Below, piece after piece: positions 1-16,022 of a DNA stretch of 21,944 bases. A model generated the notes under the pieces. The model ran no database searches, had not been told where the DNA came from, and saw only the letters and a list, made by a program, of their open reading frames with translations. The translations under genes were made by a program, and so were the position numbers. This DNA is from a virus. The first letter of the stretch is position 1. Each line of letters begins with the position of its first letter. The stretch is from positions 1-21,944 of the IMG/VR virus record IMGVR_UViG_3300009529_000055; one strand, 5' to 3'.

Positions 1-54
1 ACAGGAGCAGACAGTGGAGAGGTGACCATTAAGGTAATCCATGACGCCAGTTAA
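1..54 (+). CDS. C-terminal end of an upstream gene (5' partial)
   Basis: Frame 1 is open from the window edge to a TAA at 52-54 and encodes 17 residues ending VTIKVIHDAS. It overlaps the terminase start by 14 nt, in the same style as other junctions here. The position directly before the large terminase makes the small terminase subunit the natural guess, but so short a tail cannot show it. The open frame and the tight overlap are seen; the identity is inference. Confidence 0.4.
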   Translation, partial: TGADSGEVTIKVIHDAS

Positions 55-1279
55 AGAGATTCACCTAATAAAGCTTCATAAGGCACAGAAGGAAGTTTTA
101 AACGAGTCTAAACGCTTTAACGTACTAAGGATAGGACGAAGGTGGGGAAAGACTGAACTAGCTAAGGTCTTAGCTATTAGAACAATGTTAGATGGCTATC
201 CTATAGGCTACTGGACACCAACTTACAAAGACCTAGCAGAGATTTGGAATGAAATGAAGCACACCTTATTTGAAGTAATACAATCAAAGAACGAACAGTT
301 AAAATCTATTAAAGTACTAGGTGGGGGACGTATAGACTTTTGGTCAATGGAAGAGCCCAACTCAGGACGTGGACGTAAATACAAACGTGCTATAATAGAC
401 GAAGCAGAGAAGGCTAGAAACTTTCAGGAAGCATGGGGACAGGCTATAAGACCAACACTAGCAGACTATGAGGGTGATTGCTGGATTCTTTCAACTCCTA
501 AAGGCAAAAAGACTTTCTTTACTCAGCTAACAGACTATCCTAAGAAGTATGACAACTGGGCTTCATGGACGCTCTCTACATATACAAATCCCTACATCTC
601 TAAGGACGAGCTAGAGATAATGAAATCCCAAATGAATGATCATGAATTCAGGCAGGAGATCATGGCTGAAAGTCTAGATCAGAACGCTATGGCTTTCTGC
701 TTTAACTTTACGCATGAACACATAGGGAAAACAACGTGGCGATCAGACTTAGAAACTTATCTATCGTTTGACTTTAACAGAGAACCTTTGACTTGCATTG
801 TCGCTCAGAAGCCAGAGTTTAACAAACTTCATATCATTGAAGAAATCGTTGATAACATAGATATTGAAGAAATGTGCAAGATAATTTTAATTAAATATCC
901 AAACGCTTTGTTTATAATAACAGGCGACCAGACAGGCGAACACGCATCAGCTATACAAAAAGGACTAACCTATTACAGAAAGATTAAAGAGGTTCTATCT
1001 TTAACTGAAGGACAGATAAGACTACCAGGCAAAAACCCTTTACATCGTATCTCTAGGATGGAGGTCAATACCTTACTAAGCAGAGCAGAGATAGTCTTTG
1101 ATGAAGAAAACTGCAAACAAGCGATATGGGATTGTAAGAATGTAGAATATGACCCTGAGAAACTAAAGATAGTTAAAGAGGACAGATCAAAGATGGAACA
1201 GCAGTCAGACCTTTTGGATTGTTTTAGATACTTAATTCACAGTTTTATGAGGGATGAACTTAAACACTTAGGACTATGA
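41..1279 (+). CDS. terL: Terminase large subunit (ATPase and nuclease)
   Basis: This is the DNA-packaging motor, which pumps the genome through the portal and cuts the concatemer. The 412 residues carry both expected domains. The N-terminal ATPase has a Walker A loop GRRWGKTE at residues 32-39, a Walker B strand AIIDEAE at 117-123 with the catalytic Glu, and the coupling motif STPKGK at 151-156. The RNase H-like nuclease has acidic residues in the expected order: Asp244 in LSFDFN, Asp296 in ITGDQ and Asp390/Asp393 in SDLLDCF near the C-terminus. The length is normal for the family. The ATG at 41 is chosen because it lies just ahead of the first conserved block and overlaps the upstream gene slightly. 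The stop overlaps the next start as ATGA, suggesting coupled translation. Confidence 0.96.
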   Translation: MTPVKEIHLIKLHKAQKEVLNESKRFNVLRIGRRWGKTELAKVLAIRTMLDGYPIGYWTPTYKDLAEIWNEMKHTLFEVIQSKNEQLKSIKVLGGGRIDFWSMEEPNSGRGRKYKRAIIDEAEKARNFQEAWGQAIRPTLADYEGDCWILSTPKGKKTFFTQLTDYPKKYDNWASWTLSTYTNPYISKDELEIMKSQMNDHEFRQEIMAESLDQNAMAFCFNFTHEHIGKTTWRSDLETYLSFDFNREPLTCIVAQKPEFNKLHIIEEIVDNIDIEEMCKIILIKYPNALFIITGDQTGEHASAIQKGLTYYRKIKEVLSLTEGQIRLPGKNPLHRISRMEVNTLLSRAEIVFDEENCKQAIWDCKNVEYDPEKLKIVKEDRSKMEQQSDLLDCFRYLIHSFMRDELKHLGL

Positions 1280-1593
1280 ATATAATACTACTCTTAGTTT
1301 TTAACTGTTTGTATATTTTTGGCTTTTATAAGGCAACTCAATATAACGACGTAGACGGCAAAGCAGACCCTAACGATAGGGAAGTACTATGGTGGCTAAG
1401 ATACTACCTTAGGAACGCTCCTAATGGTTTTAAAAAGCCTTTGTTCGGTTGTGTTGTTTGTATGGCTTCTATTCATTCATGGGTCTTTTGGGTTTTCAAT
1501 GATTTCAATTTAACTAATCTTTGTATTTATATTATTTATATATTTGCATTGTCTGGGCTTAACTCTTTTGTGAATGATAGACTTTCTTCTTAA
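1276..1593 (+). CDS. Small membrane protein with CxxCMAS motif
   Basis: The 105-residue protein starts with a hydrophobic segment (about residues 2-20), followed by a polar stretch, then GCVVCMAS with Cys59 and Cys62, and a second hydrophobic part (about 66-97) that could hold one or two membrane spans. The function is unknown. The CxxCMAS arrangement next to a membrane segment resembles small membrane proteins seen in other Bacteroidota phages; this is from memory and unverified. It could bind metal or form a disulfide. The ATG overlaps the terminase stop by 4 nt, so it is probably translated with it. Its place between terminase and tail chaperone does not reveal its role. Confidence 0.72.
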   Translation: MNIILLLVFNCLYIFGFYKATQYNDVDGKADPNDREVLWWLRYYLRNAPNGFKKPLFGCVVCMASIHSWVFWVFNDFNLTNLCIYIIYIFALSGLNSFVNDRLSS

Positions 1594-1606
1594 GACAGGA
1601 TTTCAG

Positions 1607-1786
1607 ATGTACAAACATTGTGATTGTGAAGGTGGGAAGCGTTGGTTTAAGAAACAAGCGATGCCAGGTGTAGAGATTATCTTACGTAAGAGAGGCGAAC
1701 AATACGAGATCAAAAGAAGCAACAAGATAATTAACAGAGGCTATCAGCACCAACTTGAAACTGAGTACAATAAACTATTTTTATGA
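1607..1786 (+). CDS. Small hypothetical protein
   Basis: A 59-residue basic protein with a CDCEGG motif near the N-terminus and a Lys/Arg-rich centre; no family is recognised. The ATG at 1607 is preferred because it falls 13 nt after the previous stop and avoids overlap. An in-frame ATG at 1574 would add 11 residues and overlap the membrane protein by 20 nt, which other genes here also do, so it cannot be excluded. The stop overlaps the chaperone start as ATGA, which supports it as a real link in the operon. Confidence 0.55.
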   Translation: MYKHCDCEGGKRWFKKQAMPGVEIILRKRGEQYEIKRSNKIINRGYQHQLETEYNKLFL

Positions 1787-2346
1787 AGTTAATTAACTGG
1801 CTCAAAAGCAAGACCGAAAGAAAGCCTGAGTTAAAAGATGCTATCCAGAAAGTCTTTTCTATTGAAGGTGTTAATTACTACCAATTTAAAGACATAGCAA
1901 AGATCAAATGTCAAAGAGCCTTAACTGTTAATGACTTTTATAACGAACTAACAATGAGAGCGACCAGGGACTTTCTTATTCAACATACGGAAGCCGTAGA
2001 AAAGATTTTAAACAGTAACAAAATAGACATCTTTAAAGTAAACACATTAAACAACCAACTTAAAGAACGCTTGGAAATGATCTACGAAACTGATATAATC
2101 TATAAGATAGCTTCGGTTGTTTACTTTACTAAGGAAGAAAGCCCTTACGAGTATGACGATCTAGTAGGTCGTGAAAAGATTGATCTGTTTAAAAGTCAAG
2201 GTGACGCTTTTTTTTTCGCAACGCTTTTCAAAAATTTGATTGGCTCAGTGGATATATCAGACAACGATTTAGCAACTTATATGAAGGTGGGCAAGGAGAT
2301 AACGAGGGAGCATTTGAGGAACATTTCTTCCATAATGTCCAACTAA
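1783..2346 (+). CDS. Tail assembly chaperone, short form (G-like)
   Basis: This 187-residue protein lies directly before the tape measure gene, where long-tailed phages encode the chaperone (lambda gpG type) that coats the tape measure and recruits tail-tube subunits. The sequence is soluble and mostly helical-looking, with no recognisable enzyme motif. The call rests on position and on a nine-T slippery run at codons 142-145 leading into a second open frame that ends just before the tape measure. Normal decoding gives this short form, ending ISSIMSN. In lambda, the short form is made in large excess over the frameshifted form; the ratio here is unknown. Its start overlaps the previous stop by 4 nt. 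Confidence 0.75.
   Translation: MKLINWLKSKTERKPELKDAIQKVFSIEGVNYYQFKDIAKIKCQRALTVNDFYNELTMRATRDFLIQHTEAVEKILNSNKIDIFKVNTLNNQLKERLEMIYETDIIYKIASVVYFTKEESPYEYDDLVGREKIDLFKSQGDAFFFATLFKNLIGSVDISDNDLATYMKVGKEITREHLRNISSIMSN
2208..2217 (+). promoter_or_regulatory. Programmed -1 ribosomal frameshift site (T9C)
   Basis: Nine T followed by C are read in the zero frame as GCT TTT TTT TTC. Both T TTT TTT (2208-2214) and T TTT TTC (2211-2217) are perfect X XXY YYZ slippery heptamers. The -1 frame is closed by TGA four bases upstream and opens exactly here. AAGGTGA at 2198-2204 could act as an internal Shine-Dalgarno-like stimulator, though such sites work poorly in Bacteroidota. I saw no convincing pseudoknot or strong stem downstream. 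Confidence 0.8.
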
Positions 2347-2501
2347 AAAGAGATGAACGAATGTCAAGTAATATGATACTAGCAAAAACAAACGGCATGA
2401 CATACGAGGAACTAAGTAGACTTAGCTGGTACGACCATCATATTTTATTAGAGCAGACCAGGGCAAACAGCCGACAGAAAACTACAGAAAATGACTTTTA
2501 G
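2208..2501 (+). CDS. Tail assembly chaperone frameshift extension (T-like, -1 frame)
   Basis: The -1 frame is open from just after a TGA at 2202-2204, begins at the T-run and runs without a stop to TAG 2499-2501. A ribosome slipping back one base on the T-run would make a 239-residue fusion: about 144 residues shared with the short form plus about 95 new ones, ending TENDF. The last part contains MTYEELSRLSWYDHHILLEQ, the kind of short helical segment seen at the end of other phage T-type extensions. Nothing in this frame before ATG 2361 could serve as a start, so most of it would be pointless without frameshifting. ATG 2361 alone could give a 46-residue protein. The fusion is expected to bind the tape measure; this is inferred from lambda gpGT. 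Confidence 0.8.
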   Translation, partial: FFFRNAFQKFDWLSGYIRQRFSNLYEGGQGDNEGAFEEHFFHNVQLKRDERMSSNMILAKTNGMTYEELSRLSWYDHHILLEQTRANSRQKTTENDF

Positions 2502-2515
2502 ATATAGCATTCGTT

Positions 2516-5005
2516 ATGGCTCTGGAAACCGTAGTAATAAAGATTACTGGAGACAGTAAAGACCTAAACAAGACTATTGACCAACTTGAAAAGGTCGGTA
2601 AGGTAGATCGGCAAAACGCAGAATCTTTTAAAAAGACCTCTAAGCAGATGGGGTCTGGTTTTGACGGTTTAAAAAAGAAAGCAATGGCTCTTGGTGCAAC
2701 TATGCTAGGAGCATTCGCTATCCAGCAAGTAGTAAGTTCAGCAATAAACACTCTTAAAAACTTTGAAAAGGAACTATCCACGCTTCAAAGTATTACAGGC
2801 TCTACAGCAAAAGAAATGGAGTTCTTTAAACAAGCAGCGAAGGACGTAGGACAAGCCACAAAGACATCAGCAACGGAAGTAGTAAAAGCCTTTACAATGA
2901 TAGGCTCGGCTCAGCCTGAACTTTTAAAGAATAGCAAAGCACTAGCAGAGGTTACTAAACAAGCTTTAATATTATCTAAGGCAGCAGGGATTGACGCTAC
3001 TTCGGCAGCTACAGCCTTGACAAGCGCTATGAATCAATTTGGTGTAAGTGCAGATGATGCTGCAAAGTTCACCGACATATTCGCCACATCACAACAAAAG
3101 GGTTCATCTTTTATCGCAGCTACTAGCGAAGCATTGATTAATTCAGGAGCAGCTGCAGCTGCAGCAGGACTTAGCTTTGAGACTACCAACGCTGCAATCC
3201 AAGCACTAGCCAAAGGTGCTATCGTGGGAGCAAGGGCAGGAACAGCTTTGAGGGGTGTTTTAAGTAAGTTATCATCACAAACTGACGATAGTATTAATCC
3301 ATCTATGGTGGGTCTAGGAAAGACCATCACTGAATTAGCAAAAAGAAACCTAACCCTTAAAGATGCTACTAAGTTAGTAGGTGAAGAAGGAGCAACAGGA
3401 TTACTGACTTTAATTAAACAAAGGGATATTTATTTTGAGTTAGATGGTACTCTGAATGATACTGGCAATGCAATGGAGCAGATGGCAATTAATACTGATA
3501 ATCTAGATGGCTCACTTGATGAATTAAATAATGCTTGGGAAGGTTTAATGTTAGCTTTTGGTGGCTCAACTGGTGTTTTAAAAGGTGTTACTGATGAATT
3601 GACTGGAATGGTAACAGCTACGACTGATATAATTGAACTGGATGCTACATGGTTTGAGAAATTGGCAGCTTTAGTAGACCAATCAGGTTTGTATAGATTT
3701 ACATTAAAACGTGAAGCAGAAGCAAGAAAACGAGTAAAGGAAGAGCAGGAAGAGAAAATTGAAAAGACAAAAGAAGAAATTGAACTTGATAAAAAACTTG
3801 CTGAACTAGAAAAGAATAGACCCAAAACAATAGGAGATTTAAAAAAGGAATTAAAGGAACTAAGAGAAGCACAGAATGCTTTAATTCCAGGCAGTAGAGA
3901 ACTAGCAAAAAATCAAGCAAGAATCAAAGAAATACAAAAAATCTTAAAAGGTGAAACAAAGAAAGTATCAACAGAGTTTGAATTATTGCAGAAGGTAGTT
4001 TCTAAACTTAAAAAGGAACTATTAGACCAAGCTCTTGCTGGTGATCTTGATGAGAAGACGTTAGCAAAATTAAAAGATGCAACTGACAAACTTACCAAAG
4101 CACAGGAGAAGTTAAACGATGCAGTAAAAGTTGAAACTGATGAAGATATTGCAAAGAAAGCAGCAGCCAGAGCAACGGCTATAAATAAAATGAGATCAAT
4201 GGAAATGGACATTGATGAATTTGTTAAACAAGTAGAAAATGAAAATAAAAGGATAAGAGACGAAAATTTCAATAAAAGAGTTGATCAAATTAATAAAATT
4301 GCTGCAATAACGAGTGACGTAGAGGGACAACTATCTGCAATTATAGGACAAGCAAATGAGAACAAATTAATTGCTTTAGATAATGAAGAAAAGAGAGCCT
4401 TAGAAGCACTAGAAGCTCAGGGATTAGGAGAGGAAGAACTGGCTAAGAAGAAGAAAGAGATACAAGAAAAAGCAGAAAAGGAACGTGCTAAAATATTAAC
4501 AAAGCAATTCAAAGCAGACAAAGCAGCAGCCTTAATTCAAATTGCAATAGATACGGCTCTAGGGATTATGAAAACACTAGGACAGACTGGATTTTTGGGA
4601 ACACCTTTAGCAGCTATTATCGGCACAATGGGAGCAGCACAGGCAGCAGTAGTGGCTTCTCAACCAATCCCAGAATTTCACGAGGGTAAAAAAGCAGAAC
4701 TTAAAGATGGTGAGATTTTCGCTAAAGTATTAAAGAGTGAGTCGGTAATACCTCCAGAGCAATCAAAGAAATACAAGGGTGCAATAGATTCAATGATTGA
4801 CAAGAAGTTTGAGAACTATGTTTTTCAAGAGTATATGCTTCCAATGATGAAATCAATGAGCAAGAAAGACGCAACACCTTACGATGATGTTCATTTGTGG
4901 AACAACCAAAAGAAACAAATCAGGCTCATGCAAGAGAGCAACGGACTTACTAAACTAATGATTAGGACTTTAGATACAAATTCAAGACGTAGCTGGGGTG
5001 GATAA
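2516..5005 (+). CDS. Tail tape measure protein
   Basis: The protein sets tail length and is threaded inside the tail tube. At 829 residues it is the largest product here. The N-terminal third (to about residue 345) is the Ala/Ser/Thr-rich helical domain of minor-tail/tape-measure families, with motifs such as the TSATEVVKAFT segment and the long Ala run near residue 210. Residues about 395-670 are highly charged Lys/Glu coiled coil. A hydrophobic segment at about 679-718 (IAIDTALGIM to AAVVASQPIP) is typical of tape measures and may enter the host membrane. The start at 2516 follows the chaperone extension by 14 nt. Codon use between about 3400 and 4500 shifts strongly to GAT/AAT, unlike the flanks, which could mark a recombined segment. 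Confidence 0.92.
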   Translation: MALETVVIKITGDSKDLNKTIDQLEKVGKVDRQNAESFKKTSKQMGSGFDGLKKKAMALGATMLGAFAIQQVVSSAINTLKNFEKELSTLQSITGSTAKEMEFFKQAAKDVGQATKTSATEVVKAFTMIGSAQPELLKNSKALAEVTKQALILSKAAGIDATSAATALTSAMNQFGVSADDAAKFTDIFATSQQKGSSFIAATSEALINSGAAAAAAGLSFETTNAAIQALAKGAIVGARAGTALRGVLSKLSSQTDDSINPSMVGLGKTITELAKRNLTLKDATKLVGEEGATGLLTLIKQRDIYFELDGTLNDTGNAMEQMAINTDNLDGSLDELNNAWEGLMLAFGGSTGVLKGVTDELTGMVTATTDIIELDATWFEKLAALVDQSGLYRFTLKREAEARKRVKEEQEEKIEKTKEEIELDKKLAELEKNRPKTIGDLKKELKELREAQNALIPGSRELAKNQARIKEIQKILKGETKKVSTEFELLQKVVSKLKKELLDQALAGDLDEKTLAKLKDATDKLTKAQEKLNDAVKVETDEDIAKKAAARATAINKMRSMEMDIDEFVKQVENENKRIRDENFNKRVDQINKIAAITSDVEGQLSAIIGQANENKLIALDNEEKRALEALEAQGLGEEELAKKKKEIQEKAEKERAKILTKQFKADKAAALIQIAIDTALGIMKTLGQTGFLGTPLAAIIGTMGAAQAAVVASQPIPEFHEGKKAELKDGEIFAKVLKSESVIPPEQSKKYKGAIDSMIDKKFENYVFQEYMLPMMKSMSKKDATPYDDVHLWNNQKKQIRLMQESNGLTKLMIRTLDTNSRRSWGG

Positions 5006-7423: not shown

Positions 7424-8971
7424 ATGAGTTTTGTAGGTGTACCAACTAGATTTCTAGACTTTGGTGCTGTTAAGATTAACAGCTATCCGAAGCCTGTACC
7501 ATGTACTTCAAACGCTATCTTTTGCCAACCGACAGAGCAGACAGATGATATAGAGTTTCAGTTTATAGCTTCGGAGAGTTTAGAGCTTGTCACTAATGGG
7601 GATTTCTCTGATTCTAATCGTTGGAATGGATGGGACAACACCTTTGGATGGAGTCAGCCAAATACTGAAAACAAGGCTTGTTGTTATGCTAATCAGAATG
7701 GACTGATTCAGACTGGCATACTAGCATATCAAGGCTATTATAAAATAACAATAACAATCACGGAACGAACAACAGGACGATTATTAATTTACAGCAGCAC
7801 AGGGGGTGTTTCTCAGGGGACATTGGCAATGAATAAAGATTCAAATGGAACATTTACAAGCTATTTTTACAACGGAACAGCAGGAGCAACGAACCTCTTA
7901 ATATTAGGATTTAATGACTTTGATGGATGCGTGGATGATATAAGCGTCACTCAGATTACTTACATAGATGACTATACGATTCAAATATTAGATCATGAGA
8001 CATCGGCAGTCTTAGACACTGTCCCTGTTAGTTTCTTGCGTGTTACTGGTAATGTTATAAGCGTACAATTCAACTGGGATGATCTTAGTGTTACAAACGG
8101 CTGCAGGGTTATCAGGGTTTTAGACGCTACTAAAGTCTTTGAAGATAATTTTGACACTGACCCTTTGTTGCCCTGGACACTTGGCTCTGACGTAACAATC
8201 TCAGGGGGTGATATGACATACGCTTATTCTGGTGCTTCATGCCTTGCGCCTTCAGGATTTGATTGTGGTGCTTCTATTGACGCTCTAGTAGTGGGTGAAA
8301 GTTACGACATTACTTATACTGTTCAGAACATTTCTGGAGCATCTGTGACAGTCTTTGCAGGAAGCACTCAGGGAACGACACGCTCAGCTAATGGAACATT
8401 TACCGAGACTTTAGTATGTGCAACCCATACGAGATTAGCTTTCTACTTTAATGGAGCAGCCCTGCAAACGATTGAGATAGACACTATTTCAATAATTCAC
8501 ACTAATAACATAGATGGACAGAGCGAATGTTATGACTTACAAGATTCACACGATTGTTCTTTATTATTTGAATGGTCTAACAGCGAAACGTGGGGTGATT
8601 ATGATTACTCTACACCCACGACAGGAAGCGCATTTAAACAAAAACTAAGGCTGATCTCTAAATTCAGGGGAACTAAATATCCATCTACTAGGTTGATCGG
8701 TGAAACATCAGCAGGGGTCAAGAGTATGGACTATTCAAGTCTTAGAAAGAAGAAAATCCTTGACATTGACTTTGCACCTGACTACATTCACGATGCTTTG
8801 GCTGCTATGTGGATGCAAGATACTAGAACAATCGGAGCTGTAAGTTACATCTTAGACGATGATTACGAACCATCAGCACCTAGCGAATCAAGGGTTTTAT
8901 TTAAAGATATGATGACGGCTAGGATTGAACTAGAGCAAACAACACAATCAAATCAAATAAACAGATCATGA
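7424..8971 (+). CDS. Tail protein with two carbohydrate-binding-like modules
   Basis: The 515-residue protein seems to be a tail frame interrupted by two similar inserts. Residues about 53-180 begin ELVTNGDFSD and continue with a Trp-rich jelly-roll pattern typical of CBM4/9-type domains. Residues about 238-358 repeat the pattern, starting VFEDNFDTDPLLPW and including NGTFTETLV, matching NGTFTSYFY of the first copy. The N-terminal 50 residues and C-terminal 140 residues (FRGTKYPSTRLIGE, then IDFAPDYIHDALAAMW) form what looks like the conserved phage part. A receptor-binding or adhesion role toward surface glycans is inferred from the modules and from the place after other tail genes. Its stop overlaps the next gene as ATGA. 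Confidence 0.68.
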   Translation: MSFVGVPTRFLDFGAVKINSYPKPVPCTSNAIFCQPTEQTDDIEFQFIASESLELVTNGDFSDSNRWNGWDNTFGWSQPNTENKACCYANQNGLIQTGILAYQGYYKITITITERTTGRLLIYSSTGGVSQGTLAMNKDSNGTFTSYFYNGTAGATNLLILGFNDFDGCVDDISVTQITYIDDYTIQILDHETSAVLDTVPVSFLRVTGNVISVQFNWDDLSVTNGCRVIRVLDATKVFEDNFDTDPLLPWTLGSDVTISGGDMTYAYSGASCLAPSGFDCGASIDALVVGESYDITYTVQNISGASVTVFAGSTQGTTRSANGTFTETLVCATHTRLAFYFNGAALQTIEIDTISIIHTNNIDGQSECYDLQDSHDCSLLFEWSNSETWGDYDYSTPTTGSAFKQKLRLISKFRGTKYPSTRLIGETSAGVKSMDYSSLRKKKILDIDFAPDYIHDALAAMWMQDTRTIGAVSYILDDDYEPSAPSESRVLFKDMMTARIELEQTTQSNQINRS

Positions 8972-9843
8972 GGGGTGTAGTAATATTAACTTTAGGTCAT
9001 GCTTACTGGGGTCGGTGGGCTTACAACCTAGCGATGTCATTGAAATACCAAAGCCCAGAGATAAATATTTCACTTCTATACGCTGGGGATGGGATAAGCC
9101 AGATAAAAGACACTTCTTTATTTGAGAAGTTTATAAAGATACCAGAGAAATACTACCTAACAAACGGACGTACTGAATATATGAAGGTCAAGACAGCCCT
9201 TTACAAGTTATCGCCTTACGAAACAACCATCTGCCTAGACGCAGACACTATCTGGATTAACCAGAAATCTATTAATGATTTATTTAATGAGTTAGATAGT
9301 GTAAACTTCACTATGGCAAATCGTTCTTTTATGGACTTAGAGGAAGAACGTATCACAGATGAGTTTGGAGTATGGGCTTCACCTAACTACATTAAAAAGA
9401 AGTTCAACTTTAAGAAGGGCAAATTTTACAATCTTAGCTCTGAAATGATATACTTTAAAAAAGATAAAAAAGATAAAAGAATAAGTAAACTATTCTCTGA
9501 CGCTTTTAAGATTTACGATAAACCTTTAGAACATAGAATCTTTAATGGTGGTATGCCTGACGAATTACCTTTCACAATTTCAATGATTAAGAACGACATC
9601 TACCCACATATAGACAACTATATGCCATTCTACTGGGAAGCTGCTCAGCTACCTCCTAAACGTCTTACAGGGGGTGATTTGTCGCCTTACTACGCTTATT
9701 CAATGGGTGGACACATGGCACATCCTTTAATGAAAAAAACTTACGACAATTTTGTTAAATTTTACGGAAAACAATTTAACGTGATGCACCCCTATTTGTG
9801 GATAGATAAACGAGCTTACATGCCTGAAAGAAATAACTTATGA
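8968..9843 (+). CDS. Glycosyltransferase, GT8-like (GT-A fold)
   Basis: The 291-residue enzyme should transfer a sugar from a nucleotide-sugar donor to an unknown acceptor. The start VVILTLGHAYWGRWAYNLAMSL is the first Rossmann-like strand and helix; Lys75 and the metal-binding CLDADTIW (Asp91 and Asp93) match GT8-type enzymes. FNGGMPDELPF (about 190-200) resembles the acceptor-side motif after the DxD. No membrane span or signal is present, so it acts in the cytoplasm. It is wedged between tail and portal genes with 4-nt overlaps on both sides, so it must be made at the same time as the virion proteins. Donor and acceptor cannot be told from sequence. Confidence 0.78.
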   Translation: MRGVVILTLGHAYWGRWAYNLAMSLKYQSPEINISLLYAGDGISQIKDTSLFEKFIKIPEKYYLTNGRTEYMKVKTALYKLSPYETTICLDADTIWINQKSINDLFNELDSVNFTMANRSFMDLEEERITDEFGVWASPNYIKKKFNFKKGKFYNLSSEMIYFKKDKKDKRISKLFSDAFKIYDKPLEHRIFNGGMPDELPFTISMIKNDIYPHIDNYMPFYWEAAQLPPKRLTGGDLSPYYAYSMGGHMAHPLMKKTYDNFVKFYGKQFNVMHPYLWIDKRAYMPERNNL

Positions 9844-11636: not shown

Positions 11637-12474
11637 GTCTGTTGAGGACTTTTCTAAAGATTTGCCTGGTGTTCAAGATAAGATATTTGACAGGGTTCAG
11701 GTCTTGCTTAGAGATTTGGAACTTTCAAGAGGTAGCGTCAAGGCTTCTGTTAAGAATTTAAGAAAGATTAATCGTATAAAACGTGAAATAGAAGATATTG
11801 TCTACAGTGCTAAATACTTTAAAGATGTAGATTATTTCACTAACGCTTTTGATATTAGTACTGACTTACAGACAGGATATTTCCAGACGATGGAGAAAAA
11901 CTTTACCACTCCAAAGTTCATAGAGGTATTAAAAAAGTCCACTATGGAAAGCACTAAGGTAGCTTTAACAGAAGCAGGGATTCAGGCGAATGTAGTGGAC
12001 AAAGCAGCAGAGATTATTCAGACCAATATCAGTCAGGGCAGGAAGTTTGGTAATATGGTTACCGATATGAGAAACTTTCTAGTAACAACGCCAGAACACG
12101 TCGGAGCATTAAAGAGTTACGCTTCGCACATAGTAAGGGATTCAATTAATACCTACGCTGCTCAATACAATCAATATGTAAGTGACGATCTAGACTTTCA
12201 GTGGTTCGTTTACACTGGTGCTTTAGTTAAGACATCACGAAGCTTTTGTGTTAAGTTAGTCAAGAAACAATACGTACACAAGTCAGAGTTTGGAAAGGTG
12301 GCAGCAGGAAACTTTATACCAAAACCCTTAAACATGAAGGGACTAAAACCAGATACAAAGGCTACTAACTTACAAATATTAAGAGGTGGTTATAATTGTA
12401 ATCATTTACTTTCGCCTATTGGAGAAGCATGGGTTCCTAAAAAATTAAGATTAAAATATGAAGATATTAGTTAA
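11587..12474 (+). CDS. Minor head protein, MuF/SPP1 gp7-like
   Basis: The 295-residue protein follows the portal, the usual place of MuF-type minor head proteins that attach to the portal and may be carried inside the head. The N-terminal 100 residues are helical and charged. The C-terminal part has SYASHIVRDSINTYAAQYNQY, then a Cys in SRSFCVKLVKKQYVH, and RGGYNCNHLLSPIG, which corresponds to the conserved Arg-Gly-Gly...Cys-Asn-His ending of the MuF family. It overlaps the portal by 50 nt and the next glycosyltransferase by 17 nt. No toxin or protease domain is appended. Confidence 0.8.
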   Translation: MPDPLSQLQKLTNFLDKSVEDFSKDLPGVQDKIFDRVQVLLRDLELSRGSVKASVKNLRKINRIKREIEDIVYSAKYFKDVDYFTNAFDISTDLQTGYFQTMEKNFTTPKFIEVLKKSTMESTKVALTEAGIQANVVDKAAEIIQTNISQGRKFGNMVTDMRNFLVTTPEHVGALKSYASHIVRDSINTYAAQYNQYVSDDLDFQWFVYTGALVKTSRSFCVKLVKKQYVHKSEFGKVAAGNFIPKPLNMKGLKPDTKATNLQILRGGYNCNHLLSPIGEAWVPKKLRLKYEDIS

Positions 12475-13087
12475 ATTTCCAACACGTTCAAGACCTTTGC
12501 AATTCTTAAAGGTTTTAAGTTTACTTCAAAAAGCTGAAGGCGTAGAATACCTTATAACGATTGACAATGACGACCCAACAATGACAAACTTTGAACAAGA
12601 GGGGGTCTTAGTGGATAGGGGAATTTCTCATTCTAAGATTCACGCTTGTAACAGAGGACTTGAAAAGATCAAAGACTGGGATATTGTAGTTCTTATCTCT
12701 GATGATATGATACCTCAATACGAGAATTGGGACAAGGTTATAAAAAGAGATATGATTAAAAACTTTCCTGACACTGATGGTTGTCTGTGGTATCATGACG
12801 GCTATCAGGACAGGATTTGTACGCTATGTATCTTAGGGCGCAAGTATTACGAACGTTTTAATTATATTTACAATCCAGAGTATCACAGTTTATTTTGTGA
12901 CAATGAATTTACTGAGGTCGCTCGTAGTTTAGGGAAAATGAAATACTTTGACAGGGTTTTATTTAAACATGAACACTTCGCCAATACGACAGAGACAAAA
13001 AGGGATGCTCTTTATGATCGCAACGAAGCACTTTTTAATATAGACAAACAAACTTTTGAAAGAAGAAAAGAATTAAATTATGTCTAA
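12458..13087 (+). CDS. Glycosyltransferase, GT2-like
   Basis: A 209-residue GT-A type enzyme. It starts MKILVKFPTRSRP, has an early acidic motif IDNDDP (residues 35-40), an Asn/Arg helix (HACNRGLEK) and the metal-binding SDDM at 81-84. The His-rich segment FKHEHFAN near residue 171 could contribute to the active site. It lacks any membrane segment. The donor sugar and acceptor are unknown. It begins inside the end of the minor head gene and opens the glycan-modification island; the next gene begins inside its last codons. Confidence 0.75.
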   Translation: MKILVKFPTRSRPLQFLKVLSLLQKAEGVEYLITIDNDDPTMTNFEQEGVLVDRGISHSKIHACNRGLEKIKDWDIVVLISDDMIPQYENWDKVIKRDMIKNFPDTDGCLWYHDGYQDRICTLCILGRKYYERFNYIYNPEYHSLFCDNEFTEVARSLGKMKYFDRVLFKHEHFANTTETKRDALYDRNEALFNIDKQTFERRKELNYV

Positions 13088-13574
13088 ACTTATAATCTTA
13101 TCAACTCAAAGAACAGGGTCATCAGCTTTATTTTATAAGTTTGAAGATTGCATGATTGGATATGAGCCGTTCAACTCAGAAGATTCAAGGTCTGAATTTA
13201 TAGAAATCATTGAGACAGACTATTATAGAAACAGACTAGAGAATCCTTTAGAATATATAGATTACCTTTTTGAATTTGTTGAATGTATTAAGATTCAAAT
13301 GGAGTTAATACCAGGATATGTTTTAAAAGAGATTCTCACTTCACTTTACGAAAAAGTCATGTTATCCAGAAACCACTTAGACCAATTCAGGAGTTTAAAG
13401 ACAGCCCAGGCGACCGATCAATGGTGGTTAAACGAAGGGGAGGTTAAAAGAGAAGTAAACATTGATTTTGACATTTCTGAATTCAGGGAATATTCTAAGA
13501 AAATGACTGACCTTTATACATTTGCAAGAAGAAATGTTGTTAATTGTACCCACGTAAGACACCATGAAAACTAA
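13080..13574 (+). CDS. Short sulfotransferase-like protein
   Basis: The first 17 residues contain STQRTGSSALF, the P-loop-like motif with which sulfotransferases bind the 5'-phosphosulfate of PAPS. SRNHLDQFRS at 96-105 fits the second element, with Arg97 and Ser105 eight residues apart, as in the 3'-phosphate-binding motif. Such enzymes move sulfate from PAPS to hydroxyl groups, often on sugars. At 164 residues it is much shorter than usual (about 230-300): the C-terminal Tyr-Glu-Asp region and last helices are missing and it ends at VRHHEN. It may be a minimal enzyme, need a partner, or be decayed. It overlaps both neighbours (8 and 11 nt), placing it firmly in the glycosyltransferase operon. 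Confidence 0.65.
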   Translation: MSKLIILSTQRTGSSALFYKFEDCMIGYEPFNSEDSRSEFIEIIETDYYRNRLENPLEYIDYLFEFVECIKIQMELIPGYVLKEILTSLYEKVMLSRNHLDQFRSLKTAQATDQWWLNEGEVKREVNIDFDISEFREYSKKMTDLYTFARRNVVNCTHVRHHEN

Positions 13575-14226
13575 CTGTATAATTAATCTTTCTACAGGAC
13601 GCTTTATAAAAGGGCAACAGAGACTTATAGGCTCTTTAAATGGTTGTGAAGTTCTTACATGGACATCAGAGAGTCAGGTAGGTAGCCCTTTACATAAAGA
13701 CAATCCTTATGCTTTTAAAATTTATGCTTTTGAAGAAGCCCTACGTCAAGGCTTTAAACGTATTCTTTGGGTAGATGCTTCTATTTACGCAGCAAAGCCC
13801 TTAGATGCGCTCTGGGATAGCCTAGACAAGGGATATATGATACAACACGCAGGACACTATACTGGAACATGGGCAAACGATAAAACTTTAAATTATTTTA
13901 ACATCACCAGAGACGAAGCCATGACGATGCCAATGTTTCACGGAGGTTTTATCGCTTTAGATTTTAATAATATAATTGCTCGTGATCTCTACGACCTTTG
14001 GGCTGAGTCAATGTTAAACGGAATGTTTAAAGGCGAATGGACAAACACTAACAAAACAGAATCGCAAGATATTAGATGCGAAGGACATCGTCACGATATG
14101 ACTTCACTCTCAATAATAGCTAATCAAATGAAGTTGGAATCATCAGAACCGTTACTTGCTTACGTGGGAGAAAGTTATAATGAACCTCCTGAAAGTTCAG
14201 TGATGTATGCTGAAGGAATAATATAA
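13564..14226 (+). CDS. Putative nucleotide-sugar transferase
   Basis: The 220-residue protein has the look of a GT-A transferase without belonging clearly to a family I can name. RILWVDASIY (66-75) puts an Asp-x-Ser in place of DxD at the end of a strand; HGGFIALDF lies in the middle and GHRHDMTSLSIIANQ (about 175-189) offers His/Asp residues that could complete a metal site, as in several sugar-transferase families. No membrane span is present. Its stop and the start of the methyltransferase share one base (TAATG), so the two are likely translated together. It could instead be a non-catalytic sugar-binding relative. Confidence 0.6.
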   Translation: MKTNCIINLSTGRFIKGQQRLIGSLNGCEVLTWTSESQVGSPLHKDNPYAFKIYAFEEALRQGFKRILWVDASIYAAKPLDALWDSLDKGYMIQHAGHYTGTWANDKTLNYFNITRDEAMTMPMFHGGFIALDFNNIIARDLYDLWAESMLNGMFKGEWTNTNKTESQDIRCEGHRHDMTSLSIIANQMKLESSEPLLAYVGESYNEPPESSVMYAEGII

Positions 14227-14804
14227 TGTACAGCCAACGAGAAGAAGAAAAACACATCTTAGAACACTTCGGAAACGAGGGGACGTTTCTAGACATAGGT
14301 GCTTATCACCCTGAGACGTTTTCAAATACTAGGGCTTTATTTGACAGAGGCTGGAGTGGTGTTTGTGTAGAGCCATCACCTAACTGTTATCCGACCCTTA
14401 GAGATTTTTACAAAGGGACTGACGTAGAGGTTTATAATTGTGCAGTCGGTAACGGAACTGGAGTGATTGAGTTCTTTGATTCTAACGGTGACGCTCTTAG
14501 TAGTACAGACAAAGACCATGTTAAACTTTGGGAAACAAATTATGGTTCAATCTTTTCCAAGATCACTGTTCAGTGTTTTACTTTAGAGGACTTAATAGAT
14601 AGAAGTTTTTACAAAGATTTTGATTTTGTTAGTATAGATGTAGAGAACGACCGACTAGGGATTGACATTCTAAAACAGCTAGACTTAGATAGGGTAAAAA
14701 TGATCTGTTTGGAATGTTCTTATCAACATCGTGAAGAAGTGAAACAAATAACAGGCTGGAATGAGATTTATTCTAATGCCGAAAATATATTAATGATAAA
14801 ATGA
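14226..14804 (+). CDS. FkbM-family methyltransferase
   Basis: The 192-residue protein shows the SAM-dependent O-methyltransferase pattern of the FkbM family: FLDIGAYHPETFSNT (21-35) is the glycine-rich SAM loop with Asp23; VCVEPSP (46-52) has the acidic residue for the ribose; NCAVGN (71-76) and FVSIDVE (134-140) are the later strands. Family members methylate hydroxyls on sugars or antibiotics, so in this island it probably caps or modifies a glycan. The length is somewhat short but complete. A one-base overlap links it to the gene before and an ATGA overlap to the zinc-ribbon gene after. Confidence 0.88.
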   Translation: MYSQREEEKHILEHFGNEGTFLDIGAYHPETFSNTRALFDRGWSGVCVEPSPNCYPTLRDFYKGTDVEVYNCAVGNGTGVIEFFDSNGDALSSTDKDHVKLWETNYGSIFSKITVQCFTLEDLIDRSFYKDFDFVSIDVENDRLGIDILKQLDLDRVKMICLECSYQHREEVKQITGWNEIYSNAENILMIK

Positions 14805-14935
14805 ATTTAGTTTGTTATTTTAAAGGTCATATTCCTGTTAAGTATTACATAAAAAAACATAAAGTAAATCAAAGCACTTACGTTATTAACATATTTTGCA
14901 AAAGATGTTCCAAGAGATTAAACTTTCCATCTTAA
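14801..14935 (+). CDS. Zinc-ribbon miniprotein
   Basis: A 44-residue frame starts with the ATG that overlaps the methyltransferase stop as ATGA and ends at TAA 14933-14935. It encodes MNLVCYFKGHIPVKYYIKK and, later, IFCKRCSKRLNFPS. Cys5, His10, Cys33 and Cys36 have the spacing of the small zinc ribbons of the type CxxxxH...CxxC that are common in phages. It is basic and likely binds one zinc ion. The function is unknown. It overlaps the next glycosyltransferase by 31 nt, so it may also adjust that gene's translation. Confidence 0.6.
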   Translation: MNLVCYFKGHIPVKYYIKKHKVNQSTYVINIFCKRCSKRLNFPS

Positions 14936-15477
14936 TACCTTCAATCCCTTCAAGGTTTAAAAGGTTTGAAAGGTTGTTTGAGAGAATAAACGACCAGGCT
15001 TCTAAGAGTGATATGGTGGTTGAGGTTCTTGGGCTTTTTGATAACAAACAGCGTTCAATAGGACACAAAAGGGACGCTTTAGTTCAGATGTCAAAAGGTG
15101 ATTACGTTTGTTTTTGTGATGACGATGACGATGTTTCGGACGATTACGTAGAGTCTTTACTAGAGGGGATTAAACACAACCCTGACGTTGTTTGTTTTAA
15201 ACAGAAAAGTATCATAAACGGAGACGAGTGTACAGTGGATTTTGATCTTAAGAACGAAAACACCGAATTTAAAAAGGACAGGATAGTACAACGAAAGCCG
15301 TTTCACGTATGCGCTTTTAAGGGTGAGATAGCTAGGAAGTATCGTTTTAATGACTCAAATTATGGAGAAGATTGGCAATGGTGCGAACTGGTCTTAAAAG
15401 ATATTAAAACCCAGTATAAAATAGATAAGATAATTCACACCTATGTTTTTGATTCTGAAGTAACAGAAGCGATATGA
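14905..15477 (+). CDS. Glycosyltransferase family 2, first of tandem pair
   Basis: A 190-residue GT2 enzyme. KLSILIPSIPSR is the first strand with the nucleotide loop; SIGHKRDALV (51-60) is the helix before the metal site; DDDDD at 72-76 within YVCFCDDDDDVSDDYV is the metal/diphosphate site. DSNYGEDWQW near residue 150 contains the ED pair expected to act as catalytic base. The ATG at 14905 is chosen over a TTG three codons earlier. Without the large C-terminal extensions of processive enzymes, it is a simple cytoplasmic transferase. It resembles the next gene closely in layout and motifs. Confidence 0.85.
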   Translation: MFQEIKLSILIPSIPSRFKRFERLFERINDQASKSDMVVEVLGLFDNKQRSIGHKRDALVQMSKGDYVCFCDDDDDVSDDYVESLLEGIKHNPDVVCFKQKSIINGDECTVDFDLKNENTEFKKDRIVQRKPFHVCAFKGEIARKYRFNDSNYGEDWQWCELVLKDIKTQYKIDKIIHTYVFDSEVTEAI

Positions 15478-16022
15478 AATTAAGCATCTTAATATGTACT
15501 TTAGAAAATAGAAAGACTTTGTTTAACGTCTTGTTAGCTGAACTAAAGAAACAATCTAAAGGTTTTAAGGTGGAAATTTTATCTGATTGTGATAATGGAG
15601 AGCAGACTATCGGCGCAAAAAGAAACAAACTTCTTCAAAAAGCTACAGGCGAATATGTTTGTTTTATAGATGATGACGACTGGGTGGATTCTGAGTATAT
15701 TTCTAAGATCATGGAAGCCCTGGAGTTTAACCCTGATTGCGTTCAATTAATAGGAGTTATGAACACGAACGGTTTTAATAAAGTAAGGTTTGAGCATTCT
15801 ATTAATTTCGGTGTTTATTCAAATCATAAAGGAGTTTACTATCGTCCTCCTAATCATTTAAACCCTATAAAGACAGAGATAGCTCAGCAGTTTAAATTTC
15901 CAGAGTCAAACTTCGGTGAGGACACGAACTGGGCTTTGCAGATAAGAGACTCAGGGCTTTTAAAAGAAGAAGAAAAGACCTTTAAAGTTCTTTATCATTA
16001 TCGGTTTAAGTCAAAAAAATAA
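15474..16022 (+). CDS. Glycosyltransferase family 2, second of tandem pair
   Basis: The 182-residue enzyme repeats the plan of the gene before it: MKLSILICTLENR, TIGAKRNKLLQ (45-55), metal site IDDDDW (65-70) and ESNFGEDTNW with the catalytic ED pair. Strand order and spacing match so well that the two are probably ancient duplicates, now clearly diverged and perhaps adding different sugars. The start overlaps the previous stop by 4 nt. It ends the glycan island; only 57 bases follow before the next gene and these hold a promoter. Confidence 0.87.
   Translation: MKLSILICTLENRKTLFNVLLAELKKQSKGFKVEILSDCDNGEQTIGAKRNKLLQKATGEYVCFIDDDDWVDSEYISKIMEALEFNPDCVQLIGVMNTNGFNKVRFEHSINFGVYSNHKGVYYRPPNHLNPIKTEIAQQFKFPESNFGEDTNWALQIRDSGLLKEEEKTFKVLYHYRFKSKK

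Follow-up and report, generated by a model that had tools for sequence, protein, structure and literature searches.

In phage lambda, the G and T frames next to the tape measure gene give rise by frameshift to a pair of tail assembly chaperones, G and G-T, at a ratio of about 30:1 (PMC5009743). In the HK97-like tail assembly chaperone fs-gene cluster, frameshifting of 6-7% has been measured (PMC3711429). The G-T recoding of tailed phages is described as ribosomal, and G-T genes are known for their low sequence similarity (PMC5009743). In E. coli, U_UU.U_UU.Y motifs promote -1 shifting efficiently (PMC4066793). The IMG/VR virus record IMGVR_UViG_3300009529_000055, analysed here over its whole length of 21,944 bases (the window), carries a comparable arrangement directly upstream of its tape measure gene. 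We read it, with a probability of roughly 0.78, as a G/G-T pair of tail assembly chaperones from a long-tailed phage, in which G-T would be produced by -1 ribosomal slippage at a run of nine T (T9). Judging from the conserved frames, it is very likely that G and G-T products are made as in lambda; the ribosomal nature of the shift, its frequency and the chaperone activity of the products we infer.

Slip site and the two reading frames

The arrangement consists of the following features.

1783-2346, plus strand: G-like gene encoding the short product of 187 amino acids; an open reading frame (ORF) with homologues in 53 related loci and a confident structure model
2198-2204, plus strand: AAGGTGA, earlier proposed as a stimulator and judged here not to be one
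2202-2204, plus strand: TGA closing the -1 frame just before the run
2205-2501, plus strand: -1 frame encoding the T-like extension, 98 open codons to the TAG at 2499-2501
2208-2216, plus strand: T9 slip run, with T_TTT_TTT at 2208-2214 and T_TTT_TTC at 2211-2217 (C at 2217) both in phase
2217-2346, plus strand: dual-coded overlap of the 3' end of G with the 5' end of T, where third-position variability of G drops
2516-5005, plus strand: tape measure gene of 829 amino acids, the presumed client of the chaperone, matching PHROG tape measure families (to 2e-38) and Pfam PhageMin_Tail (6e-24)

The T9 run is located near the 3' end of the G-like gene. Since the 0 frame reads GCT TTT TTT TTC GCA across it, both slippery heptamers noted in the initial annotation are in phase, in the X_XXY_YYZ register of -1 ribosomal frameshift sites. 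The -1 frame that the same annotation described, closed by a TGA and then open to a TAG 14 nucleotides (nt) before the tape measure ATG at 2516, can be read directly from the letters. The predicted lengths of 187 and 239 residues also hold by ORF arithmetic, as 144 codons in frame 0 (1783-2214) and 95 in the -1 frame give a fusion product of the same length from either heptamer. The +1 frame closes after 9 codons and therefore only a -1 shift is productive.

According to the proposed mechanism, most passes over the gene would yield the 187-residue G-like protein. At the run, where tRNA-Phe occupies both codons of T_TTT_TTT (or T_TTT_TTC), a minority of the ribosomes would slip back by one base; the slipped tRNAs would re-pair perfectly, and the -1 frame would be read to 2501 to give the 239-residue fusion. 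By analogy with lambda, the tape measure protein, whose gene comes next, would be coated by many copies of G, and the few copies of G-T would use their T part to recruit the tail tube protein.

Conservation and selection in related loci

A direct search found four close contigs whose G is 92-96% identical to that of the window, and a fifth with 67%. T9 has the same phase in all five. In four of them the -1 frame continues without a stop almost to the tape measure gene; the remaining one (L005) ends inside that frame. A search with the T domain added one locus (L010) in which the run is A9 and lies further upstream. A profile scan with the terminase alignment then gave 80 related loci, and profile searches of their plus-strand open frames detected G in 53 sequences and T in 48. 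Wherever a locus has both, T is always at -1 to G, and the loci with G but without T are those whose sequence ends inside G. Dropping identical sequences and one truncated locus left 35 distinct sequences that reach the region, the window included, which come from many metagenomes. All 35 have an in-phase heptamer, present as T9 in phase 2 (12), T9 in phase 1 (3), A9 (2) or T7 (18), and all 35 have the open -1 frame behind the run. By the criterion of the initial annotation, loss of the slip site among relatives, or stops in their -1 frame, would speak against it; all 35 loci keep the run and the open frame. Neither an in-frame G-T fusion nor a relative without the run was seen among the related loci reaching the region. 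Eleven further TerL loci checked ORF by ORF gave no counter-example: one of them (L062) carries the pair, and the other ten either stop short of the region or, in the part covered, have different genes behind TerL. In the window and 34 further distinct loci, a -1 shift at the slip site, close to the 3' end of G, would thus lead into the second frame, a layout held down to about 27% identity in G. Every relative has a stop in the -1 frame within roughly 60 nt ahead of the run, and in many this stop is immediately adjacent to it.

The substitution pattern indicates that the extension is maintained as protein. Between the window and L003, L012 and L017, the ratio of nonsynonymous to synonymous substitution rates (dN/dS) for the part of T beyond the G stop is 0.05-0.06, with dS of 0.6-1.0. 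Among these four sequences the third positions of G vary at 69 of 141 sites before the run and at 8 of 44 in the overlap, while beyond the G stop the variable sites of the T frame are third (19/51), first (8/50) and second (1/51) positions. Read from these alignments, the pattern is that of a single coding frame giving way to two overlapping ones and then to the second alone; purifying selection acts on the -1 extension as protein, and both frames are selected. The extension is therefore conserved and selected as in a lambda-type pair.

Homopolymers readily suffer length errors and replication slippage (PMC3711429), and one frame might in principle be split into two by an error in sequencing or assembly, or because a single gene is phase-variable or has decayed. 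Such an origin is the least probable of the alternatives for the window, and the comparisons refute it for the family as a whole: the two-frame layout recurs in 35 distinct sequences from many sources, the near-identical relatives all have T9 with no change in run length, no fused version was found, and purifying selection acts on both frames.

The -1 frame could also encode a separate protein that starts internally, at ATG 2361 or another codon, through re-initiation or translational coupling once G has terminated, with no need for a change of frame. The initial annotation counted a single ATG in this frame, at 2361, which is wrong; there are three (2361, 2373 and 2397), all just past the G stop at 2346 and present in the close group. 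Against their use, strongly conserved T residues, such as a GAF and an HF-H stretch, lie upstream of ATG 2361. No early start codon in the T frame is conserved among the relatives, L019 having no ATG, GTG or TTG and L018 only a late TTG. Conservation of the T or A run in all 35 loci would also be left unexplained, and an internal start is very improbable.

Chance accounts for the run itself quite readily. The window is AT-rich and contains one T9 where dinucleotide shuffles give a mean of 3.2 on both strands. T9 is present in 48% of synonymous recodings, so that, taken alone, it is about half expected from Phe-Phe-Phe and the codon usage of the phage and is not improbable. The open frame is different: when the 0-frame protein is recoded synonymously, only 0.17% of the recodings leave the -1 frame without a stop across the overlap. 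Across the 35 loci, T9 on the coding strand occurs at the slip site in 15, and elsewhere only twice in 354,629 nt of the same loci. Against chance, the comparison with relatives is decisive.

Ribosomal or transcriptional slippage

Several observations weigh against a chaperone pair made by ribosomal slippage. Stretches of nine A or T cause bacterial RNA polymerases to slip (PMC5009743, PMC3711429), and T9 and A9 are long enough for this. The window has neither a conserved stimulatory stem-loop nor a well-spaced internal Shine-Dalgarno (SD) sequence. No significant match was obtained for G in PHROGs, Pfam, PDB (by sequence profile and by fold) or BFVD, or for T in PHROGs, Pfam or BFVD. Finally, no tail tube gene was identified by profile in the window, where TerL and two small ORFs stand directly upstream of the pair.

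The first of these points leads to an account in which the same G and G-T products arise from a frame change in transcription, the polymerase slipping on T9 to make some mRNAs one base shorter (or two longer), which normal translation would then follow directly into the T frame. Exactly nine bases are kept in 17 of the 35 loci, in three codon phases and after a relocation from T to A, and never eight or ten. The third codon of T9 members in phase 2 may be TTC, TTG or TTA but is never TTT, so the run has been kept at exactly nine through Phe-to-Leu changes. The homopolymer of about nine or more A or T that transcriptional slippage uses is thus present as T9 in the window; however, 18 of the 35 distinct relatives have only T7, which is usually too short and stands exactly in phase as a ribosomal heptamer. 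The phase of the nine-base runs does not discriminate between the two, nor is their length specific to polymerase, because each contains an in-phase heptamer in any register. Slippage reported at such sites is 15-30% (PMC4256274), well above the low level used by G-T pairs, as in lambda (PMC5009743). We hold a transcriptional origin to be unlikely, although it is the foremost alternative. Ribosomal slippage is favoured on account of the minimal in-phase heptamer of the T7 loci, the efficiency of U_UU.U_UU.Y motifs and the ribosomal character of G-T recoding in tailed phages. The programmed -1 frameshift proposed in the initial annotation as the source of a long chaperone therefore stands as to the frame layout, on the 35 loci and the dN/dS values, and its ribosomal nature is favoured, not proven, over polymerase slippage.

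In a tree of G, T9 is scattered across deep branches and A9 and T7 are each found on one side of a branch, so the T7 loci do not count as independent. The site of the T7 clade is an exact in-phase heptamer, GAT TTT TTT ATC, with AGT once in place of GAT. TTT TTT is kept even where TTT is rare, as in L071, where it accounts for 13% of the Phe codons. All 18 distinct T7 loci have AAGGAGG 16 nt upstream of the run (e.g. L053 8813-8842), and L052 keeps it although just 15% of its Lys codons are AAG and 21% of its Glu codons are GAG. This element may be a stimulator unique to the T7 clade; it is only suggestive, because 16 nt falls outside the published spacing of 8-11 nt (PMC6321510). It is conceivable, but doubtful, that the family uses two recoding chemistries, with T9 and A9 members relying mainly on polymerase and a derived T7 clade on ribosomes, with AAGGAGG as a fixed internal SD. 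No report of transcriptional slippage at a tail G/G-T switch was found in the literature searched. The A9 runs (L018 8726-8734, L019 2612-2620) lie about 26 nt further upstream than the T9 of relatives, and T is still reached at -1.

At a spacing of 8-11 nt, -1 shifting is stimulated by an internal SD, whereas an SD right beside the E site attenuates it and promotes +1 shifting (PMC6321510). The suggestion that AAGGTGA stimulates slipping in the window is consequently unlikely, and this candidate was rejected: it is 3 nt from the run, in the attenuating position, and is not kept in the more distant relatives L022 and L021. It is also the nearest SD-like element in the window, and downstream folding is unremarkable (z-score about -0.5 for 45 nt and 0.7 for 70 nt), so that neither an SD about 8-11 nt upstream nor a 3' structure, both common and not obligatory in prokaryotes, is present. 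The T9 members have no consistent SD. Among the 35 loci a 3' structure with z below -3 in the 45-nt stretch occurs only in L071, L061 and L078, and hence there is no family-wide 3' structure.

Protein identity, gene neighbourhood and known systems

G is modelled with confidence (predicted local distance difference test, pLDDT, 88.9) as helical except for its N-terminal part, and T with moderate confidence (pLDDT 77.5). Weak BFVD matches named tail assembly chaperone had E values above 1 and were not used. Searches by tblastn with three different family members found no homologue of G in a named phage. A scan of a genome collection for host assignment returned only L015, a locus in a Lokiarchaeota metagenome-assembled genome with an unrelated ORF. 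As neither protein matches a named family, phage or fold, the tail assembly chaperone assignment rests by analogy on position, architecture and conservation. The lack of similarity to a known chaperone is not decisive, given the low similarity among G-T genes. Common descent with a named chaperone family is unproven, and the function is proposed by analogy.

The surrounding genes of the window are as follows.

41-5005: block in which TerL (terminase large subunit) and two small ORFs, upstream of the G-like gene, adjoin the chaperone and tape measure genes
14226-14804: Methyltransf_21 (Pfam)
14896-15477 and 15474-16022: Glycos_transf_2 (Pfam)

The starts at 1276, 1574 and 1783 fall before the preceding stops, in gene overlaps of a few bases (1276-1786). 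Because of these tight overlaps, the genes from terminase through tape measure are suggested to form one translationally coupled operon. The block apparently precedes the head genes, which is unusual, the common order being terminase-portal-capsid-tail. Small glycosyltransferase-like and FkbM methyltransferase genes lie amid the structural genes at 12458-16022 (also 8968-9843). In diverged relatives (e.g. L082, L085, L089), judged by eye, a long run of other ORFs follows the terminase.

The locus supplies a G/G-T arrangement and protein boundaries for an uncultivated phage lineage whose chaperones are unmatched in Pfam, PHROGs and the named phage records searched, and the T9, A9 and T7 series provides a natural set of variants in which ribosomal and polymerase slippage can be compared within one gene. 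Slip sites of the nine-base kind have counterparts in genes with transcriptional realignment, Thermus dnaX (A9) and Shigella mxiE, in which the frame junction likewise holds about nine A or T and two variants differ at the C terminus; the difference is that half of the distinct relatives here have T7 only, in phase with a ribosomal heptamer. Like the HK97-like cluster (PMC3711429), the locus has a two-frame chaperone gene of phage origin with recoding, but no homology to that cluster was detected and the family is unmatched in the collections named above. As with lambda gpG/gpG-T, the pair stands just before the tape measure gene and the extension is reached at a slip site. Unlike in lambda, the slip site is a T9 homopolymer, the upstream neighbours are terminase and two small ORFs rather than an identified tail tube gene, and the searches run gave no sequence or fold similarity to any named chaperone. 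Comparison with the relatives strongly supports the reading as a protein family that is new but whose recoding architecture is known, following a rule established since lambda.
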